Assembly (NCBI RefSeq): GCF_020171465.1
Contig: NZ_JAIUZR010000006.1
Coordinates: 186,001 to 250,000, forward strand
Reading direction: 5' to 3'
DNA: 64,000 nucleotides
DNA from: Lutimonas saemankumensis
GTDB lineage: Bacteria > Bacteroidota > Bacteroidia > Flavobacteriales > Flavobacteriaceae
The notes below the pieces were generated by a model. That model did no database searches. It was given only the letters and a program-made list of their open reading frames with translations, and was not told the origin of the DNA. The position numbers were made by a program, and so were the translations under genes. Positions 11,144 to 18,382 of this stretch are shown piece after piece (within the stretch, counting starts at the first letter, position 1; the number at the start of each line of letters is the position of its first letter).

Positions 11144-11178
11144 TTATAAACTCGGGGAAAGCGACCCCAGGTTTATAA
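11144..11178 (-). terminator. Stem-loop at the end of the fasciclin gene
   Basis: The outer 8-bp stem TTATAAAC (11144-11151) pairs with 11171-11178, and an inner GGGG/CCCC stem closes an AAAGCGA loop. The fasciclin stop codon lies within the structure. Only a weak T-rich stretch follows on the minus strand, so efficiency is uncertain. Confidence 0.55.
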
Positions 11179-12996
11179 CTCTGGGATTAATACTTTATCT
11201 ACTGCATGAATTACACCATTGCTTCCATGCACATTTACTATAATAATTTCGGCATTATCATCAGTTTTATCTTCAAGGAAGGCTCCGTTATCATTAAGAA
11301 TCACTTTTAAAGTTTGTGTATTCAGTGTCGGAACTACCTGGCCGTTTACAAGATTGTAGCTAAATACCCTTGCGCCAACCGCATGATAGGTCAAAATTGT
11401 TCTGATTTGATCCTCAGTTAAAGTTGGAATAACGTCCTCAATTTCTTCGAATGCCGCGTCAGTTGGAGCAAATACCGTAATGTTTTCAGCATCTATAATG
11501 GCTTGGGTAATGTCTGCAAAAGCATCAGAAGCCAATAAGCTCGTTAATACTGTGAATTCTGAGGCATCTCCGTTATCCGCTAAAGCTAACGCAATCTCGA
11601 CCACGTTTGGAGCCGGAGGGATCAACGTTCTGTCGATTACGTGAACCACACCATTGCTCTTTTCGATATCAACTGCTGTAATCGTAGTCAATCCATTGAT
11701 CAATACATTTGCTGAATATCCAAGGTAAATATTTTCTCCGTTTAAAGTAGCAGCTATTCCGCTTTCAGGTAAATCTCCGGATTTCACAACCCCACCTAAG
11801 ACGTGGTATGTTAATACAGGTGTCAAGTCTTCTTTTTCCAAACCATCAAGGGAAGTAATTCCCGCGGCTACGAATCCTGCGTTAGTTGGAGCAAATACTG
11901 TTAAGTCAGCAGTAGTAGCTACTGTTTCCAGTAATTCAGCTTTTCTCAAAGCAGCTGCCAAAATTGTAAAGTCATTTTCAAACAGTACGGGCTCGGCAAT
12001 TGTTCCTACAGAATAGGCTACATAACTTGGTAGTAAGACCGCATCAACCACATGCGCCACACCATTGACAGCTTTTAAATCTGCTGCTGTAACATTGGCA
12101 TTGTTAATTTTAACACCATCTGTAAGGTCTACCGTCACAAATTCGAATTCTGGTCCTCCAGGTATTCCTGGTAGTAAGGTATTGACATCTCCGTTAGATA
12201 ATTGATCCGAAGTAACAGCACCACCTAAAATGTGATATGTTACTATTTCTTTTAGTAATTCCACCGGAATTTCGTCTATACTTGCTTTTCCTAAAGCTCC
12301 TAAAACAGCCTCGAAAGCGGCATCAGTCGGTGCGAATACTGTAAGGTCCTGAGTAGGATCGTTCGCTGCAGCCAACAAATCTCCTAACTCTGGTTTTCCA
12401 AGAGCACTCAATAGTATCGTATGATCAGGACTTCCTGCAACAATCTGAGCAAGTGTATTTGTTACAAAATCTTCAGGAATTAAAACTTCATTGATTATAT
12501 GAATAACCCCGTTAGAAGCTGGTACATCGGCAGTTGTAACGTCTGCGGATCCATTCAAAACAACTCCGTTAGAAAGGTCAACATCAATGGTTTGTCCGGA
12601 TAGCAGGGTTTGAACAGGGCCATTGGTAAGGTCACCGGATTCTACTTCACCTGAGACTACATGATATTGAAGTAAAGCAGTTAATAATGATTTATTTGCG
12701 ATCACATTATTAAGTACATCTTGATCCATAGCGTTAAAAGCGGCATTTGTTGGAGCGAAAACCGTGAATGGTCCCGGTCCTGCAAGAGCTTCATCAAGTC
12801 CTGCAGCTACTACAGCGCCAGTTAAAGTAGAAAGGTCAGGTCGTCCTGAAACGACTTCTACAATGTTCTGATCTCCCGGGTCTATCATGTCATCGTCGTC
12901 ATCGTCACATGATTGTGTTGTCATCGTAAAGGATAATACTAATATAAGCATCAGGGCCTTGGGTAAATAGTTTAAGTGTTGGATTAAATTTTTCAT
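11173..12996 (-). CDS. Surface lipoprotein with four fasciclin (FAS1) domains
   Basis: A 607-residue protein. The signal peptide ends in the lipobox TTQSC (Cys30), followed directly by six aspartates (31-36), the kind of acidic tail that sends Bacteroidota lipoproteins to the cell surface. Four FAS1 domains follow, at about 44-174, 178-324, 328-461 and 464-607. Each has an H1 motif (VFAPTNAAF, VFAPTDAAF, VFAPTNAGF, VFAPTDAAF) and each ends in NGVxHxxxxxLxP. FAS1 domains mediate adhesion in many organisms; the ligand here is unknown. The gene is divergent from the MerR gene, and its promoter shares the motif found at the carotenoid promoters. Confidence 0.93.
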   Translation of the reverse strand: MKNLIQHLNYLPKALMLILVLSFTMTTQSCDDDDDDMIDPGDQNIVEVVSGRPDLSTLTGAVVAAGLDEALAGPGPFTVFAPTNAAFNAMDQDVLNNVIANKSLLTALLQYHVVSGEVESGDLTNGPVQTLLSGQTIDVDLSNGVVLNGSADVTTADVPASNGVIHIINEVLIPEDFVTNTLAQIVAGSPDHTILLSALGKPELGDLLAAANDPTQDLTVFAPTDAAFEAVLGALGKASIDEIPVELLKEIVTYHILGGAVTSDQLSNGDVNTLLPGIPGGPEFEFVTVDLTDGVKINNANVTAADLKAVNGVAHVVDAVLLPSYVAYSVGTIAEPVLFENDFTILAAALRKAELLETVATTADLTVFAPTNAGFVAAGITSLDGLEKEDLTPVLTYHVLGGVVKSGDLPESGIAATLNGENIYLGYSANVLINGLTTITAVDIEKSNGVVHVIDRTLIPPAPNVVEIALALADNGDASEFTVLTSLLASDAFADITQAIIDAENITVFAPTDAAFEEIEDVIPTLTEDQIRTILTYHAVGARVFSYNLVNGQVVPTLNTQTLKVILNDNGAFLEDKTDDNAEIIIVNVHGSNGVIHAVDKVLIPEL

Positions 12997-13025
12997 CGTT
13001 TAATAATTTAGTTATAAAAGTTGAA

Positions 13026-13057
13026 CAAAGATAAATAAAAAAAAATTTAACGTCCAA
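13026..13057 (-). promoter_or_regulatory. Promoter of the fasciclin gene
   Basis: On the minus strand, a TTG (13057-13055), a 21-bp spacer and TATCTTTG (13033-13026) fit the Bacteroidota promoter. The -7 box continues into TTTGTTCAAC, which is the reverse complement of the motif GTTGAACAAA (13020-13029) shared with the merR and crtI promoters. Confidence 0.7.
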
Positions 13058-13104
13058 GAAAAAAATAAAAAAATTGAACAAAAAAATAATTTTGCACATT
13101 TTTA

Positions 13105-13136
13105 TTGCTTATTTCTGAGATTTTATACTATATTTG
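13105..13136 (+). promoter_or_regulatory. Promoter of the MerR/CarH-like gene
   Basis: TTG (13105-13107), a 21-bp spacer and TATATTTG (13129-13136) form a good Bacteroidota promoter. Transcription would begin near 13141. The TTG at 13105 is therefore a -33 element, not a start codon, and the gene starts at 13165. The motif TTTGTTCAAG (13133-13142) overlaps the -7 box and the start site. Confidence 0.75.
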
Positions 13137-13164
13137 TTCAAGTATTAACTTTTTATTGTTAAAC

Positions 13165-14052
13165 ATGATTACTTATTCAGTAGCACAGGTTGAAGCCTTA
13201 ACAGGTATTAAAGCTCATACTTTAAGGATATGGGAAAGAAGATATGATTTCCTTACCCCGATGAGAACGGCAACCAATATTCGTTATTATTCTGATGAGC
13301 AGTTAAAGAAGCTTTTGAATTTTGGTATTCTGGTAAGAAATGGTTATCGGGTATCCAAGCTGAATAAAATGTCAGATGCGGAAGTTTATGAAGAGGTTAC
13401 AAAAGTCCTGGCCAGTCCTGGATCTGAAAGCAGCGACGAAATGAAAGGATTGACATTGAGTATGTTGGAAATGAATGAAGAGGATTTTGACGAAATTTTT
13501 GAAAGACAAGTCATTCGAAAAGGTTTTTTCCGAACTATTACAGAGTCAATCTATCCTTTTCTGCAATATGTTGGGGTGCTTTGGACAACTAATAAGGCGA
13601 TGATAGCTCAAGAACATTATATGTCTAATTTGATCCGTCAGAAAATAATTGCTGCTATTGAAAAGTTAGCGATTCCTCCTAAAGGAGCTCCTTCTCTGGT
13701 TCTTTTTTTACTTGAAGGTGAAGAGCATGAAATTGGATTGTTGTTAGCTAGTTTTATGGCAAAAGAAATGGGTTGGAACGTTTATTATTTGGGTTATGGT
13801 GTACCAATCTTGAATATAAAAAAGGTTTTGGAGATTGCTGAGCCAAACCTGATGATGACCATGTTTGTAACGCCGAAAATGCAAAAGGTAAATGGATTTA
13901 TAGCATCAATCCTTGATGGAGTCGACGTCCCTTTTGTAATTTCTGGAAGTCAGGAGAATTTAGACGCGGTGGAAGATCATGATTTGGTGCTTAAAGTTAC
14001 ATCCCCTCACGACTTCAGGGATCAGTTGGAGAAAATCCAAAATAACTTATAA
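13165..14052 (+). CDS. MerR-family regulator with cobalamin-binding-type domain, CarH/LitR-like
   Basis: A 295-residue protein. The N-terminal MerR winged helix (residues 2-70) includes AHTLRIWERRY. A helical bundle near 100-165 holds W140 followed by E150-H151, the Wx9EH signature that packs on adenosylcobalamin in CarH. A Rossmann-like domain (about 175-290) carries ExHxxG at 186-191 with H188 as candidate lower axial ligand. The later SxL and GG motifs of B12 domains look degenerate (TMF near 232-234, SGS near 260-262). CarH proteins repress carotenoid genes in the dark and release DNA when light breaks the cobalt-carbon bond. Here the gene lies directly upstream of crtI and divergent from the fasciclin gene. 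Cofactor binding is inferred from motifs. Confidence 0.85.
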   Translation: MITYSVAQVEALTGIKAHTLRIWERRYDFLTPMRTATNIRYYSDEQLKKLLNFGILVRNGYRVSKLNKMSDAEVYEEVTKVLASPGSESSDEMKGLTLSMLEMNEEDFDEIFERQVIRKGFFRTITESIYPFLQYVGVLWTTNKAMIAQEHYMSNLIRQKIIAAIEKLAIPPKGAPSLVLFLLEGEEHEIGLLLASFMAKEMGWNVYYLGYGVPILNIKKVLEIAEPNLMMTMFVTPKMQKVNGFIASILDGVDVPFVISGSQENLDAVEDHDLVLKVTSPHDFRDQLEKIQNNL

Positions 14053-14056
14053 CAGA

Positions 14057-14080
14057 CGCCTCAATATCAATATTGAGGTG
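14057..14080 (+). terminator. Hairpin after the MerR gene
   Basis: The 9-bp stem CCTCAATAT (14059-14067) and ATATTGAGG (14070-14078) extends by a G-T and a C-G pair. It starts 5 nt after the stop. No T-run follows, so it may protect the mRNA end or terminate only weakly. Confidence 0.5.
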
Positions 14081-14290: not shown

Positions 14291-14350
14291 GTTAGACAAA
14301 ATTAGTCTTGAACAAAAAAGTTTAAAAAAAAATATAAAAAGTTAAACAAA
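14291..14350 (+). promoter_or_regulatory. Candidate CarH-like operator: three direct repeats upstream of crtI
   Basis: GTTAGACAAA (14291-14300), CTTGAACAAA (14307-14316) and GTTAAACAAA (14341-14350) share the form NTTRRACAAA. The start-to-start spacings are 16 and 34 bp. The last copy ends 2 bp before the crtI -33 element. A weaker copy, GTTTAAAAAA, lies at 14320-14329. The same motif occurs at the merR and fasciclin promoters (13020-13029, 13073-13082, and inverted at 13133-13142). Operator function is inferred. Confidence 0.6.
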
Positions 14351-14352
14351 AA

Positions 14353-14385
14353 TTGACGTTTTGTGCAAAAATTAATTTAGATTTG
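14353..14385 (+). promoter_or_regulatory. Promoter of the carotenoid operon
   Basis: TTG (14353-14355), a 22-bp spacer and TAGATTTG (14378-14385) match the Bacteroidota promoter. The crtI ATG is only 7 bp after the -7 box, so the transcript should be leaderless or nearly so. Confidence 0.7.
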
Positions 14386-14392
14386 TATAACG

Positions 14393-15856
14393 ATGAAAAA
14401 AAATATTTCCATAATTGGTTCAGGATTTGCCTCTATATCGGCCGCATGTTATTTGGCGAAAGAAGGATTTAACGTTACTGTCTATGAAAAAAACGTTCAG
14501 CTAGGAGGAAGGGCAAGACAATTTGAAAAGGATGGTTTCAAATTTGATATGGGACCAACCTGGTACTGGATGCCCGATGTGTTTGAACGGTTTTTTGCAG
14601 ACTTTGGCAGGAATCCATCAGATTATTATGATTTGGAAAGGCTGGGACCTGCCTACCGTGTTTATTTTGGAGAGCAGGATTATATTGATATATCGGATAA
14701 CCTGGAAGAGATCAAATCAACTTTTGAAAAGGAAGAGCCCCAATCCTCTGCTGCCCTGACCGATTTTCTAAAAAAAGCGGAATTCAATTATGAGGTGGCC
14801 ATTAAGGACCTCGTATACAAACCCGGTCTTAGTCCTTTTGAATTGGTAACCAGGAGCACTGTTTTAGAGATTCCCCAGTTTATTGGAACAATTCATGATG
14901 TGGCCAAGAGGAAATTTAAAAGTTCCAAGTTGAGGCAAATAATTGAATTTCCAGTTCTTTTTTTAGGTGCAAAGCCTTCCATGACGCCGGCTTTTTATAG
15001 TTTTATGAATTTTGCAGACCTAAGCTTAGGCACATGGTATCCTAAAGGAGGAATGAAATCTGTAGTGGACGGAATGATAACGATGGCGAAAGAATTGGGG
15101 GTAAGTTTCATGACCAATGCCAACGTTGATCAAATCATCACAGGAAAGAACAAAGAGGTTAAAGGAATAAAGGTAAACGGAGAAATCCTTTCTACAGAGC
15201 TTTTGGTATCAGGCGCTGATTACGCACATACAGAATCCTTGTTGCCAGAGGAGCTCAGGATGTATAGTGAAAAATACTGGCAGAAAAGAGTGATGGCACC
15301 CTCTTCACTTCTCTTTTACGTAGGTCTTGACAAGAAATTGGACAATGTTTTGCATCATACGCTATTTTTTGATGTTCCCTTTGATGAACATGCCAGGGCC
15401 ATATACGATGACCCCATGTGGCCAAAAGAACCATTATTCTATGCCAGTTTTCCTTCAATGACAGATGACTCCATAGCACCAGCAGGAAAAGAGGCCGCAA
15501 TCTTCCTGATCCCTTTGGCCCCGGACCTTGAGGATACGGAAGAATTAAGGGAGCAGTATTTTGATATTATCATGACAAGACTTGAAAAATTAACAGATCA
15601 AAACGTCAGATCTTCAATACTCTTTAAGGAGTCATATTGTGTGGAAGATTTTAAAAATGATTATAATTCATATAAAGGAAATGCCTATGGAATGGCCAAT
15701 ACTTTGCTGCAAACTGCTTTTTTAAGGCCCAAGCTGAGGAGCAAGAAAATAAAAAATTTGTATTTTACGGGTCAGTTGACTGTTCCGGGTCCTGGAGTTC
15801 CACCTTCCTTGATCTCGGGTAAACTGGTTTCCGATCTACTAATTAAAGACCAATAA
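14393..15856 (+). CDS. crtI: Phytoene desaturase
   Basis: A 487-residue flavoprotein that desaturates phytoene to lycopene. The N-terminal FAD-binding fold has IGSGFASISAACYLAKEG (GxGxxS form) and GGRARQFEKDGFKFDMGPTW. The C-terminal part holds the family motif FTGQLTVPGPGVPPSLISG. Length is standard for bacterial CrtI. It is the first gene of the operon, with crtB one base after its stop. The promoter and repeats directly upstream suggest control by the neighbouring CarH-like regulator. A related 3,4-desaturase is less likely because no other CrtI-type gene is present. Confidence 0.95.
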   Translation: MKKNISIIGSGFASISAACYLAKEGFNVTVYEKNVQLGGRARQFEKDGFKFDMGPTWYWMPDVFERFFADFGRNPSDYYDLERLGPAYRVYFGEQDYIDISDNLEEIKSTFEKEEPQSSAALTDFLKKAEFNYEVAIKDLVYKPGLSPFELVTRSTVLEIPQFIGTIHDVAKRKFKSSKLRQIIEFPVLFLGAKPSMTPAFYSFMNFADLSLGTWYPKGGMKSVVDGMITMAKELGVSFMTNANVDQIITGKNKEVKGIKVNGEILSTELLVSGADYAHTESLLPEELRMYSEKYWQKRVMAPSSLLFYVGLDKKLDNVLHHTLFFDVPFDEHARAIYDDPMWPKEPLFYASFPSMTDDSIAPAGKEAAIFLIPLAPDLEDTEELREQYFDIIMTRLEKLTDQNVRSSILFKESYCVEDFKNDYNSYKGNAYGMANTLLQTAFLRPKLRSKKIKNLYFTGQLTVPGPGVPPSLISGKLVSDLLIKDQ

Positions 15857-15857
15857 C

Positions 15858-16697
15858 ATGAAACAAATATTCGACAAATTATCTTATCAGTGCTCACACA
15901 AGGTCACCAGCCTGTACAGTACATCGTTTTCACTTGCCGTTAAAATGTTATCTCCCAAGATACAGAAAGACATTTATGCCATTTATGGTTTTGTTCGATT
16001 TGCGGATGAAATTGTAGACACCTTTCATGAATACGATAAGGAACTTTTACTGGACGAATTTGAAGAGGATCTTGCCAAGGCCCTTGACAGAAGATTGAGT
16101 ATGAACCCCATATTGAATTCTTTTCAGGAGGTAGTTCATAAGAATAATATTGATGCTGATCTTATTGACCACTTTATGAAAAGTATGCGGGCAGATTTAA
16201 ATAAACAAGAATATAAGAGTGTTGAAGAATATGAGGAATACATCTATGGATCGGCAGATGTTGTTGGTTTGATGTGTTTAAAGGTTTTTGTGCAGGGAGA
16301 TCAGAAAAGATATGATGAATTAAAGGAGCCGGCCATGAAATTGGGAAGTGCATTTCAAAAGGTCAATTTTTTGAGAGATCTTAAGGATGATACTGAGAAT
16401 CTTCATCGGTCTTATTTTCCGCATATCAAAGGGGGTATCATAGATAGCGAGTCCAAAGCATTGATCATCGAAGAAATAAACAAGGATTTTGAAGAGGCTT
16501 ATGTTGGAATCCAAAAGCTTCCTATTGAGGCGAAATTTGGGGTATACACGGCCTTTATCTATTACAGAAAACTTTTGAGAAAGCTTACGGTAACTAAAGC
16601 AAGTGAAATAAGGGAGAAAAGAATTCGAATCAGTAATCCGATGAAAATGGTGCTTTTGACTAAATCATTTGTAAATTATAAGTTGAATTTGCTTTGA
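15858..16697 (+). CDS. crtB: Phytoene synthase
   Basis: A 279-residue squalene/phytoene synthase that condenses two geranylgeranyl diphosphates to phytoene at the membrane. Two Asp-rich Mg-diphosphate sites are visible: DEIVD (50-54) in FVRFADEIVDTF, and DLKDD (173-177) after FLR. YSTSFSLAVKML near residue 20 is typical of the family. It follows crtI by 1 bp, and its stop TGA overlaps the TTG of the next gene. No GGPP synthase gene (crtE) lies in the cluster, so the substrate must come from elsewhere in the genome. Confidence 0.95.
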   Translation: MKQIFDKLSYQCSHKVTSLYSTSFSLAVKMLSPKIQKDIYAIYGFVRFADEIVDTFHEYDKELLLDEFEEDLAKALDRRLSMNPILNSFQEVVHKNNIDADLIDHFMKSMRADLNKQEYKSVEEYEEYIYGSADVVGLMCLKVFVQGDQKRYDELKEPAMKLGSAFQKVNFLRDLKDDTENLHRSYFPHIKGGIIDSESKALIIEEINKDFEEAYVGIQKLPIEAKFGVYTAFIYYRKLLRKLTVTKASEIREKRIRISNPMKMVLLTKSFVNYKLNLL

Positions 16698-17212
16698 AGA
16701 TAATGTTGTTCATATTAATGTTACTTTATTCCGGATTGACGATGGAGAAAGATATCATTCTTCATAATATCCGATCAGCTTTTCAGGAAATTAACAGCCA
16801 GGAAGACATTGAGTCCATAAACCGGATCAGGGCGGAGGAGGCAGAATATGACAACCAAAATGTGATCAGAGCCTATCAGGCGGCTGCCACTTGTATGAAG
16901 GCAGAATATGTGTTTTCACCTGTTTCCAAGCTCAAATATTTTAACAAGGGAAAGAAAAAACTGGAAACACTCATTGAAAATGACAAATCAGTGGAGAAGG
17001 TTTACCTGAGGTTACTGATACAGTTAAATGTGCCACGTCATCTTAATTACCATCAGGAAATTAACGAAGACATTGTTTTTTTGGAGAATCATTTGGCTGA
17101 CGCCCGAATTGATTTAAGCTATAAACGTATTATGATAAAAAATCTGGTCAGTGTGGCCGATAAGAGGGAAATAAGAGATATCTTAGAGCAGATAAAGGTT
17201 GAAAATAGTTGA
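16694..17212 (+). CDS. Uncharacterised protein in the carotenoid operon
   Basis: A 172-residue protein I do not recognise. A TTG start overlaps the crtB stop (TTGA); an in-frame ATG at 16703 is the alternative. The N-terminus (KIMLFILMLLYSGLT) is a short hydrophobic stretch resembling a signal peptide, and the rest is predicted by eye to be helical and charged. Repeated helix pairs near 35-110 (VIRAYQAAATCMKAEYVFSP, KKLETLIENDKSVEKVYLRL) recall TPR-like solenoids. It sits between crtB and crtZ with tight spacing, so it is surely co-transcribed. A periplasmic or membrane-associated helper in carotenoid handling is possible, but that is inference only. Confidence 0.75.
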   Translation: MKIMLFILMLLYSGLTMEKDIILHNIRSAFQEINSQEDIESINRIRAEEAEYDNQNVIRAYQAAATCMKAEYVFSPVSKLKYFNKGKKKLETLIENDKSVEKVYLRLLIQLNVPRHLNYHQEINEDIVFLENHLADARIDLSYKRIMIKNLVSVADKREIRDILEQIKVENS

Positions 17213-17226
17213 TTTAATTTAGAAAT

Positions 17227-17676
17227 ATGGTCTTGTTTATAACAATTTTGGTTACAGCGGTCCTGATGGAAGGAGTAGCCTGGGCAATGCACAAATACAT
17301 CATGCACGGAATTTTTTGGAATCTACATGAAGATCACCATGTCAGAGATAATCATGACTCATTTTTTGAACGTAATGATTCCTTTTTTGTTTTTTTTGCC
17401 ATTATTTCTATTACTGCCTTTGCCCTGTGGTCCATATTTGACTGGCAAATTAGTCTGGGCATTGGAATTGGTGTTTTTATTTACGGGGTCGTCTATTTCA
17501 TCATACATGATCTTTTTATTCACCAAAGAATAAAGATCTGGAGAAAAACAAAAAATCCGTATTTGTTAGGGATAAGGAGAGCTCATAAAATTCACCATAA
17601 ACACCTCGGTAAGCATGATGGAGAATGCTTCGGAATGCTGTGGGTCCCAATGAAATACTACAAAGGAAACTATTAA
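17227..17676 (+). CDS. crtZ: Beta-carotene hydroxylase
   Basis: A 149-residue di-iron membrane hydroxylase that adds 3- and 3'-hydroxyl groups to beta-carotene to give zeaxanthin. The fatty-acid-hydroxylase histidine boxes are complete: H22-x4-H27, H34-x2-HH (37-38), H94-x4-H99 and H120-x2-HH (123-124). Three or four hydrophobic helices surround them. It is 14 bp downstream of the unknown gene and 4 bp before the cyclase gene. Its presence makes zeaxanthin the expected product of the operon; no ketolase (crtW) is present here. Confidence 0.95.
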   Translation: MVLFITILVTAVLMEGVAWAMHKYIMHGIFWNLHEDHHVRDNHDSFFERNDSFFVFFAIISITAFALWSIFDWQISLGIGIGVFIYGVVYFIIHDLFIHQRIKIWRKTKNPYLLGIRRAHKIHHKHLGKHDGECFGMLWVPMKYYKGNY

Positions 17677-17680
17677 AGAA

Positions 17681-18382
17681 ATGTCTCTCTACCTTTGGAT
17701 TGATCTATTATCACTATCTGTCCCGCTACTTGTATCCTTTCACCCGAGATTAGAACTCTACAAACAATGGAAATTTTTGTTTCAGGCGATAGCGATTACA
17801 ATGCTACCCTTTATCGTCTGGGATGTTTATTTTACGATTCAAGAGTATTGGGGTTTTAATCCGGAATACCTTTCGGGAATATATGCGCTTCATCTGCCTG
17901 TAGAGGAGTGGCTATTTTTTATTTGCATTCCTTATGCATGTGTGTTTACTCATTTATCATTGCTTGAACTTAATCCAAACATAAGGTTATCGGATCGGGT
18001 TACTAAGAAAATTACTTATCTATTGGCCATCATATTCACCGGCATCCTGCTCTTTAATTTTAATAGAGCCTATACCGCGGTAGATATGATTTTTGCCCTG
18101 ATCGTATTATTCATTGCACATCGAATTCGGCCGAAACTACTTAATTCTTTTTATTTGACTTTTTTGGTCATGCTGATACCTTTTTTTATTGTGAATGGCA
18201 TTCTAACCGGCACAGGTATTGAGGGAAATATAGTTTGGTACAATGATAAAGAAAACCTGGGGGTAAGAATGGGGACAATTCCTGTGGAAGACAGTGCCTA
18301 CGCCTTCTCAATGATCCTAATGAATCTTTTGATCTTTTTACAATTCAGAGATCGTGCAAAAAATAAGCTTATCAAAGACTAA
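17681..18382 (+). CDS. Lycopene beta-cyclase, fused CrtYc-CrtYd type
   Basis: A 233-residue integral membrane protein made of two copies of the lycopene cyclase domain that is split into CrtYc and CrtYd in actinobacteria. Each half has the signature: PVEEW at 73-77 and PVED at 201-204. About six or seven hydrophobic helices are seen. It converts lycopene to beta-carotene. This family is unrelated to the FAD-dependent CrtY of proteobacteria. It is the last gene of the operon and converges with the GNAT gene, with only 2 bp between stops and no clear hairpin terminator. Confidence 0.92.
   Translation: MSLYLWIDLLSLSVPLLVSFHPRLELYKQWKFLFQAIAITMLPFIVWDVYFTIQEYWGFNPEYLSGIYALHLPVEEWLFFICIPYACVFTHLSLLELNPNIRLSDRVTKKITYLLAIIFTGILLFNFNRAYTAVDMIFALIVLFIAHRIRPKLLNSFYLTFLVMLIPFFIVNGILTGTGIEGNIVWYNDKENLGVRMGTIPVEDSAYAFSMILMNLLIFLQFRDRAKNKLIKD

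Follow-up and report, generated by a model that had tools for sequence, protein, structure and literature searches.

Among the pigmented bacteria of sunlit waters, Bacteroidota are a major group. In Lutimonas saemankumensis, a gene for a MerR-type protein lies next to carotenoid genes, which poses the question whether this protein is a B12-dependent light sensor and, if so, through which sites and on which genes it would act. We addressed this question in a window of 64,000 nucleotides (contig NZ_JAIUZR010000006.1, positions 186,001 to 250,000 of the forward strand), to which all coordinates below refer. Comparisons of sequence and of a predicted structure lead us to assign the protein, with a probability of about 0.8, as a CarH-type (LitR class I-like) B12 photoreceptor-repressor. 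This type of sensor is already known; new are an operator box, TTRRACAA, and a fasciclin lipoprotein as a likely second target. The open-access literature, covered mostly at abstract level, yielded no description of a B12 photoreceptor from Bacteroidota, only of "MerR" genes in crt clusters, and within the same scope no earlier description of operator sites or of a fasciclin partner for a CarH-type sensor in this phylum. Such genes, placed like ours in or before a flavobacterial crt cluster, are known from Sediminicola YIK13 (PMC4732338) and Nonlabens (PMC11855829), where the available text names a MerR regulator and gives no B12 or light role; PMC9304148 and PMC9758184 were consulted as well. 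The protein and its motifs are encoded as follows:

13165..14052, + strand: carH-type regulator, 295 aa, with a MerR DNA-binding domain and an AdoCbl domain (translation, domain search, PDB matches, model)
13174..13377, + strand: MerR winged helix, residues 4-71 (Pfam)
13573..13617, + strand: GxxW and Wx9EH motifs (G137, W140, E150, H151), which in CarH cap the adenosyl group
13585..13587, + strand: T141, equivalent of Thermus His132 (light-state cobalt ligand), a non-His residue (alignment)
13717..13737, + strand: GxxH / ExHxxG with H188, equivalent of the lower axial ligand His177 (alignment)
13792..13806, + strand: GxxxP motif, G210 and P214 (alignment; motif name from PMC11796333)
13945..13950, + strand: G261-S262, equivalent of GG, with the second Gly replaced (alignment)

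Pfam assigned MerR_1 (PF13411, 7e-14) and B12-binding_2 (6e-7) to the 295-aa protein, on which PF02310 gave no scoring match. The best PDB sequence match was Thermus CarH (E 5e-20 with the single sequence, 9e-28 with a profile of 25 relatives; 28% identity), and the alignment paired W140 with W131, T141 with His132, E150 with E141, H151 with H142, and H188 with His177. The initial annotation had proposed a CarH-like W140-x9-E150-H151 signature and an ExHxxG motif (here EEHEIG) containing H188; both indeed sit at these positions and align with Thermus CarH. Their spacing is close to that of known CarH, as had been claimed, being identical from W to EH (x9) and 48 residues, against 46 for W131-H177, from W to the lower His. 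All four light-responsive motifs named in the available text of PMC11796333 (GxxW, EH, GxxH, GxxxP) were found. The score for the NCBIfam CarH equivalog NF052513 was 96.7 bits, below its cut-off of 400, which 0 of 14 control genomes pass, among them Thermus composti, a species that may or may not encode a CarH.

An AlphaFold model, computed with the window protein and 44 relatives (mean pLDDT 92, pTM 0.74), displayed the four-helix bundle and Rossmann AdoCbl fold, and the top 12 Foldseek rows against the PDB were full-length Thermus CarH (5c8d/e/f). The next rows were isolated CarH cobalamin domains (mostly with a TM-score by target of about 0.8 and rmsd of about 3-4), CtMerR and photocobilin. 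The full-length rmsd to Thermus CarH was large, 13-18, presumably reflecting another placement of the DNA-binding arm in the model. The Rossmann half is thus divergent in sequence, yet present in the model. With CarH as top PDB match and the pocket residues in register, the structure prediction and Thermus alignment that the annotation had put forward as a check support its assignment.

Pocket residues were then compared across 154 Bacteroidota homologs. E150 and G210 are kept in 154, W140 in 153, H188 and G137 in 152, H151 in 149, and P214 and G261 in 148; within residues 90-295, the stretch ranked, few positions are as well conserved as W140, E150, H151, H188, G210 and P214. Since the pocket is near invariant, the agreement of motifs with CarH is not due to chance. 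The annotation had also called the SxL and GG motifs degenerate, the former corresponding to T232-M-F234 at the classic SxT/V site. This holds for the second Gly of GG, S262 in the window protein and Gly in only 3/154 homologs, while the deviation is otherwise mild, position 232 being S or T in 145/154 and G261 being as widely kept as noted above. Its further suggestion of a different cofactor chemistry found no support for the dark state and was rejected, because both corrin faces are lined by conserved residues; the differences lie in the light-state ligand and the second Gly.

Position 141, the equivalent of Thermus His132, is mostly Gln (88 of the 154), Leu (21) or Gly (17), and His in 2. 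In a small cross-phylum alignment, His occurred at 132 only in two Thermus proteins, being replaced by Arg in Caballeronia, Glu in Eleftheria and Azoarcus, and Ala in Rhizobium, four proteobacterial relatives that keep GG. The absence of His132 is thus not peculiar to Bacteroidota; replacement of the second Gly may, from these sequences, be specific to them. CtMerR is reported to be photoactive with Arg at this position, which varies among cobalamin photoreceptors (PMC11796333), and the Thermus H132A variant to be largely tetrameric in light, against an earlier report (PMC10442372). Judged from CtMerR and the alignments, His132 is not a family-wide requirement, and the homologs supply many natural CarH-like proteins that lack this residue, on which the Thermus reports disagree. 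In five of the 154 rows (L096, L170, L061, L065, L068), at least one of W140, E150, H151 and H188 is not kept. In the small alignment, a Gemmatirosa row lacks both the Trp motif and the axial His, and the row from a Persicobacter plasmid (L196, Bacteroidota) has lost the axial His. L096, L170 and L196, all Bacteroidota paralogs, lack the axial His along with further pocket residues and are candidate B12-independent forms.

Compared with known systems, the window protein is closest to Thermus thermophilus CarH (LitR class I), with which it shares domain order, Wx9EH, ExHxxG, GxxW, GxxxP, the fold, a position beside crt genes and an ACA-type operator repeat; the TtCarH gene is reported to adjoin phytoene synthase and photolyase genes. 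It differs by its 28% identity, by Thr for His132 and the replaced second Gly, and by a divergent fasciclin gene; its boxes, in place of three tandem 11-bp repeats, are spread over promoters, and those of relatives often stand inverted or at a distance of 44/52 bp. CtMerR from Chloracidobacterium and photocobilin (8jbs/8jbt, 8j2w/8j2x) share the AdoCbl fold, the signature and a non-His residue at 132 (Arg, Gln); photocobilins are described as using biliverdin as well (PMC11796333).

The genes downstream are:

14393..15856, + strand: crtI, phytoene desaturase, above the NCBIfam CrtID cut-off too (Pfam, NCBIfam)
15858..16697, + strand: crtB, phytoene synthase, SQS_PSY (Pfam, NCBIfam)
16694..17212, + strand: 172-aa protein between crtB and crtZ, no Pfam/NCBIfam match
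17227..17676, + strand: crtZ-like hydroxylase, FA_hydroxylase (Pfam)
17681..18382, + strand: lycopene cyclase, CarR/crtY-cd type (Pfam, NCBIfam)

crtI is the next gene downstream of carH, as had been annotated, after a gap of 340 bp. The set of crtB, crtI, CarR-type cyclase and crtZ-like hydroxylase makes zeaxanthin a plausible product. The crtI product scored 726.6 bits against CrtID, a bifunctional phytoene / 3,4-desaturase family with a cut-off of 640, so that the end product may differ from plain zeaxanthin.

Homologs of the regulator matched in 127/149 genomes of the family, and beyond the HTH alone in 120/149, of which one (G106) matches in part only. On a quick tree with SH-aLRT support only, two clades received a support of 99 each: class A, containing the window protein, and class B, commoner in the same family, whose gene usually lies directly before crtI. 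Class A holds together as a clade only if the sister row L076 is placed within or next to it; its members include Arenibacter, Mangrovimonas, Xanthomarina, a Flaviramulus MAG and some Flammeovirgaceae MAGs. Class B leaves out one member of the family, L055. Among 119 loci, with each neighbour family named from one representative, we found crtB near 71, crtI near 66, crtZ near 62, an ECF sigma factor gene near 44, crtY near 33, the PF04240 carotenoid synthesis protein near 20 and photolyase near 13. Six listed genomes of one order-mate family had no full-length homolog (five no match, one weak). For Chryseobacterium, in which carotenoids are light-induced, the available text of PMC7064467 reports no car or lit genes.

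To define candidate operators, we used a strict box, STTRRACAAA, and a relaxed one, TTRRACAA. Elements called -7-like fit TAnnTTTG, which we take to be the Bacteroidota -7 element. Repeats of the type GTTRAACAAA were first spotted by eye in both gaps flanking carH, ahead of comparison with the published CarH operator repeat nAnnTnnACAn (reported in PMC8156234). The initial annotation was silent on these boxes and on the fasciclin gene, whose start lies 168 bp upstream of carH. The corresponding features are:

11173..12996, - strand: candidate fasciclin lipoprotein of 607 aa with four FAS1 domains, divergent from carH
12997..13164, no strand: common fasciclin/carH promoter region, with three boxes
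13020..13029, + strand: putative operator box GTTGAACAAA, overlapping CAAAGATA (13026-13033, reverse), the -7-like element of the fasciclin side; no match in the sister species
13073..13082, + strand: putative operator box ATTGAACAAA, with the same sequence in the sister species
13133..13142, - strand: putative operator box CTTGAACAAA (reverse), overlapping the carH -7-like element TATATTTG (13129-13136)
14291..14300, + strand: putative operator box GTTAGACAAA, upstream of crtI
14307..14316, + strand: putative operator box CTTGAACAAA, upstream of crtI
14341..14350, + strand: putative operator box GTTAAACAAA, upstream of crtI
14378-14385: crtI -7-like element TAGATTTG, overlapped by no box

At the sequence level, five of the six boxes fit nAnnTnnACAn in full and all six carry its T and ACA, the box at 14307 lacking the A. 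The window contains six strict boxes (2.5 expected; at least six in 3/100 shuffles), five of them inside the two gaps, and 19 relaxed boxes, with six in the 508 bases of these gaps and one in the 4340 bases of other gaps. Across the genome (3.58 Mb), pairs of strict boxes on one strand and at most 60 bp apart were found before crtI and nowhere else. Five of the six boxes still match in the sister species, the exception being that at 13020. Two of the six overlap a -7-like element, one on the fasciclin side and one on the carH side, an arrangement that fits a repressor blocking polymerase.

The boxes recur in relatives, where gene starts were set at the first ATG/GTG/TTG and distances are rough. 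Upstream of carH in 16 other class A loci, we counted 22 strict boxes in 4320 bases, whereas the reversed control gave 0 and the other 178 kb contained 9; this set includes three Arenibacter loci and excludes L034 (own genus), L105 (near L041), L111 (contig of L040), L112 (contig cut) and L074 (short flanks). Strict boxes are absent from four of the 16 (L036, L041, L102, L103), two of which, L102 and L103, lack relaxed ones as well. CarH-linked promoter gaps contain 28 boxes in 2905 bases for class A, where L034, sister to the window that supplied the motif, is included, 18 in 7822 for class B and 122 in 19343 for the rest (9.6, 2.3 and 6.3 per kb), with L103, L105, L108, L109 and L111 dropped and L112 counted with the rest. 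The reversed pattern occurs 3, 5 and 9 times in the same gaps, an imperfect control since box and -7 element have letters in common; unrelated promoter gaps, the better control, contain 1 box in 4939 bases, 1 in 5968 and 19 in 27111 (0.2, 0.17 and 0.7 per kb). Concentrated in this way in CarH-linked promoter gaps, TTRRACAA would constitute the CarH operator box, opening the way to a testable operator and promoter plan for Bacteroidota CarH.

For the sigma-region and box-variant counts, class A was represented by 14 loci, the former set without L103, L108 and L109 and with L149 added. The upstream regions of ECF sigma factor genes contain a box in 37/44 cases (94 boxes; reversed control 4), and spacings of 24 bp on opposite strands (17 cases) and 44 bp on the same strand (9 cases) recur among these 44 regions; a spacing of 52 bp occurs in three class A loci (L035, L042, L106). 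With relatives showing spacings of 24, 44 and 52 bp, no Thermus-like tandem 11-bp operator was seen. The box variant TTRTACAA was discarded, with counts of 4 against 1 in class A carH regions and 4 against 0 in fasciclin regions, and no excess elsewhere. The sigma factor gene follows carH in L133 (7070-7579) and in 43 other loci, many of which have crtI as the next gene; together with the boxes, this order suggests that CarH may act through the sigma factor there.

The target set is probably wider than crtI, as the divergent fasciclin gene has its promoter region in common with carH. By eye, the N-terminus of its product is hydrophobic and followed by SCDDDDDD, a Cys and Asp run often seen, as we understand it, in surface lipoproteins of Bacteroidota, so that we regard the protein as a candidate lipoprotein. 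A divergent fasciclin gene is found in 16/19 wide class A loci (L034-L042, L104-L109, L111), or 15 of the 18 distinct ones, since L111 lies on the same contig as L040; the three without it are L102, L103 and L110, with L102 and L110 having short flanks on one side. In 10 class A loci (9 distinct), fasciclin is followed after 65-126 bp by crtI on one strand, and in three Arenibacter loci after 115-122 bp by crtB, again on one strand. In the genus of the window, the crt genes lie on the opposite side of carH from fasciclin. Taken together, the common promoter region and the position of fasciclin at the head of the crt operon in 12/18 distinct class A loci make it a likely second target of CarH, and hence a new candidate target for this type of regulator.

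Alternatively, fasciclin may not be a target, the pairing being a chance gene order passed down within one clade. Fasciclin genes are not rare, with five in the genome of the window species, a single origin would account for the class A pairing, and only 8 of 15 carH-fasciclin gaps have a box overlapping a -7-like element on the fasciclin side (against 6 on the carH side), the box concerned in the window having no match in the sister species. However, each of these 15 gaps, the window included, carries at least one box. Across the tree, where carH and fasciclin are adjacent (<600 bp) in 23 rows, not adjacent in 96 and unscored in 35, the pairing requires at least six changes, including in Marinilabiliaceae-type loci without crt genes in the flanks examined; overall, fasciclin lies near 24/119 loci. 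Moreover, one genome (G135) contains both classes, and its class A copy retains fasciclin while its class B copy sits with crt. The same divergent pair occurs in the betaproteobacterium Eleftheria terrae, one of five annotated proteobacterial neighbourhoods, and is absent from the four others (two with 600 bp per side, two with 2500). We thus regard a mere accident of gene order as unlikely, and retain fasciclin as a likely CarH target. In five loci (L134, L140, L156, L164, L168), whose examined flanks contain no crt gene, fasciclin immediately precedes carH in the same orientation.

The fasciclin protein matched TGFBI and periostin best, and it also matched the carotenoid-binding FAS1 protein AstaP (8c18, 4e-16), with which it shares the FAS1 domain; compared with AstaP, it has four domains and scores higher to TGFBI and periostin. 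From its position in operons comes the idea that it handles carotenoids, adhesion being the other candidate role. Speculatively, it could belong to the light response as a bacterial counterpart of algal AstaP: located at the surface, this FAS1 protein would bind or position the zeaxanthin-type pigment and be produced along with it, both controlled by a single B12 photoreceptor that reaches its light state in the absence of a bis-His ligand; we hold this combined proposal to be unlikely. A cyanobacterial FAS1 protein is reported not to bind carotenoid (PMC10147662).

We next consider the possibility that the regulator acts without B12, as do Myxococcus CarA or class II LitR, its domain being a relic oligomerisation module and the light signal arriving via another protein (LOV, anti-repressor). 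Myxococcus xanthus CarA resembles the window protein in combining MerR and B12-like domains and in controlling crt genes. As in class II LitR from Pseudomonas, Pfam scores only the helix-bundle half, B12-binding_2, and the GG motif is incomplete; class II LitR is reported to be B12-independent, PmlR2 working with a LOV protein. However, CarA is described as keeping the classic motif and lacking the Trp of Wx9EH, which is present in the window protein and almost all its homologs, and class II LitR, set apart here by description, lacks a proper Rossmann B12 domain, whereas H188 and a Rossmann fold are present here. Across the 154 homologs, conservation reaches 97-100% for each of W, E, H and the lower His; decayed paralogs, L096 and L170 in this set and Persicobacter L196 in the small alignment, stand out as exceptions. 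B12-independent action is thus improbable, and the intact motifs led us to reject a CarA-like or class II LitR-like regulator.

A further explanation, to which we give similarly little credence, is that the protein senses the supply of AdoCbl, or oxygen/redox, and represses when the cofactor is plentiful, light being incidental. The host encodes a PF01923 adenosyltransferase and, elsewhere in the genome, three B12-binding proteins above the Pfam cut-off, and some relatives, including Bacteroidales, have no crt gene within up to 6 kb per side. Against it, the Trp/Glu cap and GxxxP are described as marks of light-responsive domains (PMC11796333), and the frequent neighbours are photoprotective: crt genes and, near the 13 loci counted above, photolyase. 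Across the 149 family genomes, the adenosyltransferase is found in 116/120 with the regulator and 21/29 without it (Fisher p 2e-4; p 0.002 in 125 better genomes), an association that lends the CarH assignment weak support since small or incomplete genomes may lose both genes; the regulator is still present in 4 of the 12 genomes without the enzyme. As for a small MerR regulator of the MliR type, MliR is described as a 109-aa protein with no effector domain (PMC9478572), hence a different protein.

A CarH-type regulator of crt genes is therefore the reading supported by sequence, fold, conservation, neighbourhood, boxes and the host adenosyltransferase. In the mechanism that we propose, the four-helix bundle and the Rossmann subdomain would sandwich AdoCbl in the dark, with W140, E150 and H151 above it and H188 below, and the cofactor would stabilise an oligomer. 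This oligomer would bind the TTRRACAA boxes at the crtI, carH and fasciclin promoters and keep polymerase off, by covering the -7-like elements at carH and fasciclin and from boxes upstream of the -7-like element at crtI. Light would break the Co-C bond, the oligomer would dissociate or weaken, and carotenoid genes, carH and fasciclin would be expressed. Because His132 is replaced by Thr, the light-state step would have to differ from that of Thermus in its final ligand. If true, this mechanism would link B12 supply, light and pigment in Bacteroidota.

Two minor observations concern the crt locus. A family related to the 172-aa protein encoded at 16694-17212 is found in 8/119 loci, and the light-induced crt cluster of Chryseobacterium lacus is reported to contain a hypothetical gene at the matching place (PMC7064467), a correspondence of position. 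Finally, an inverted repeat, CCTCAATATCAATATTGAGG, seen by eye at 14059-14078 just 3' of the carH stop codon, is possibly a terminator or an operator.
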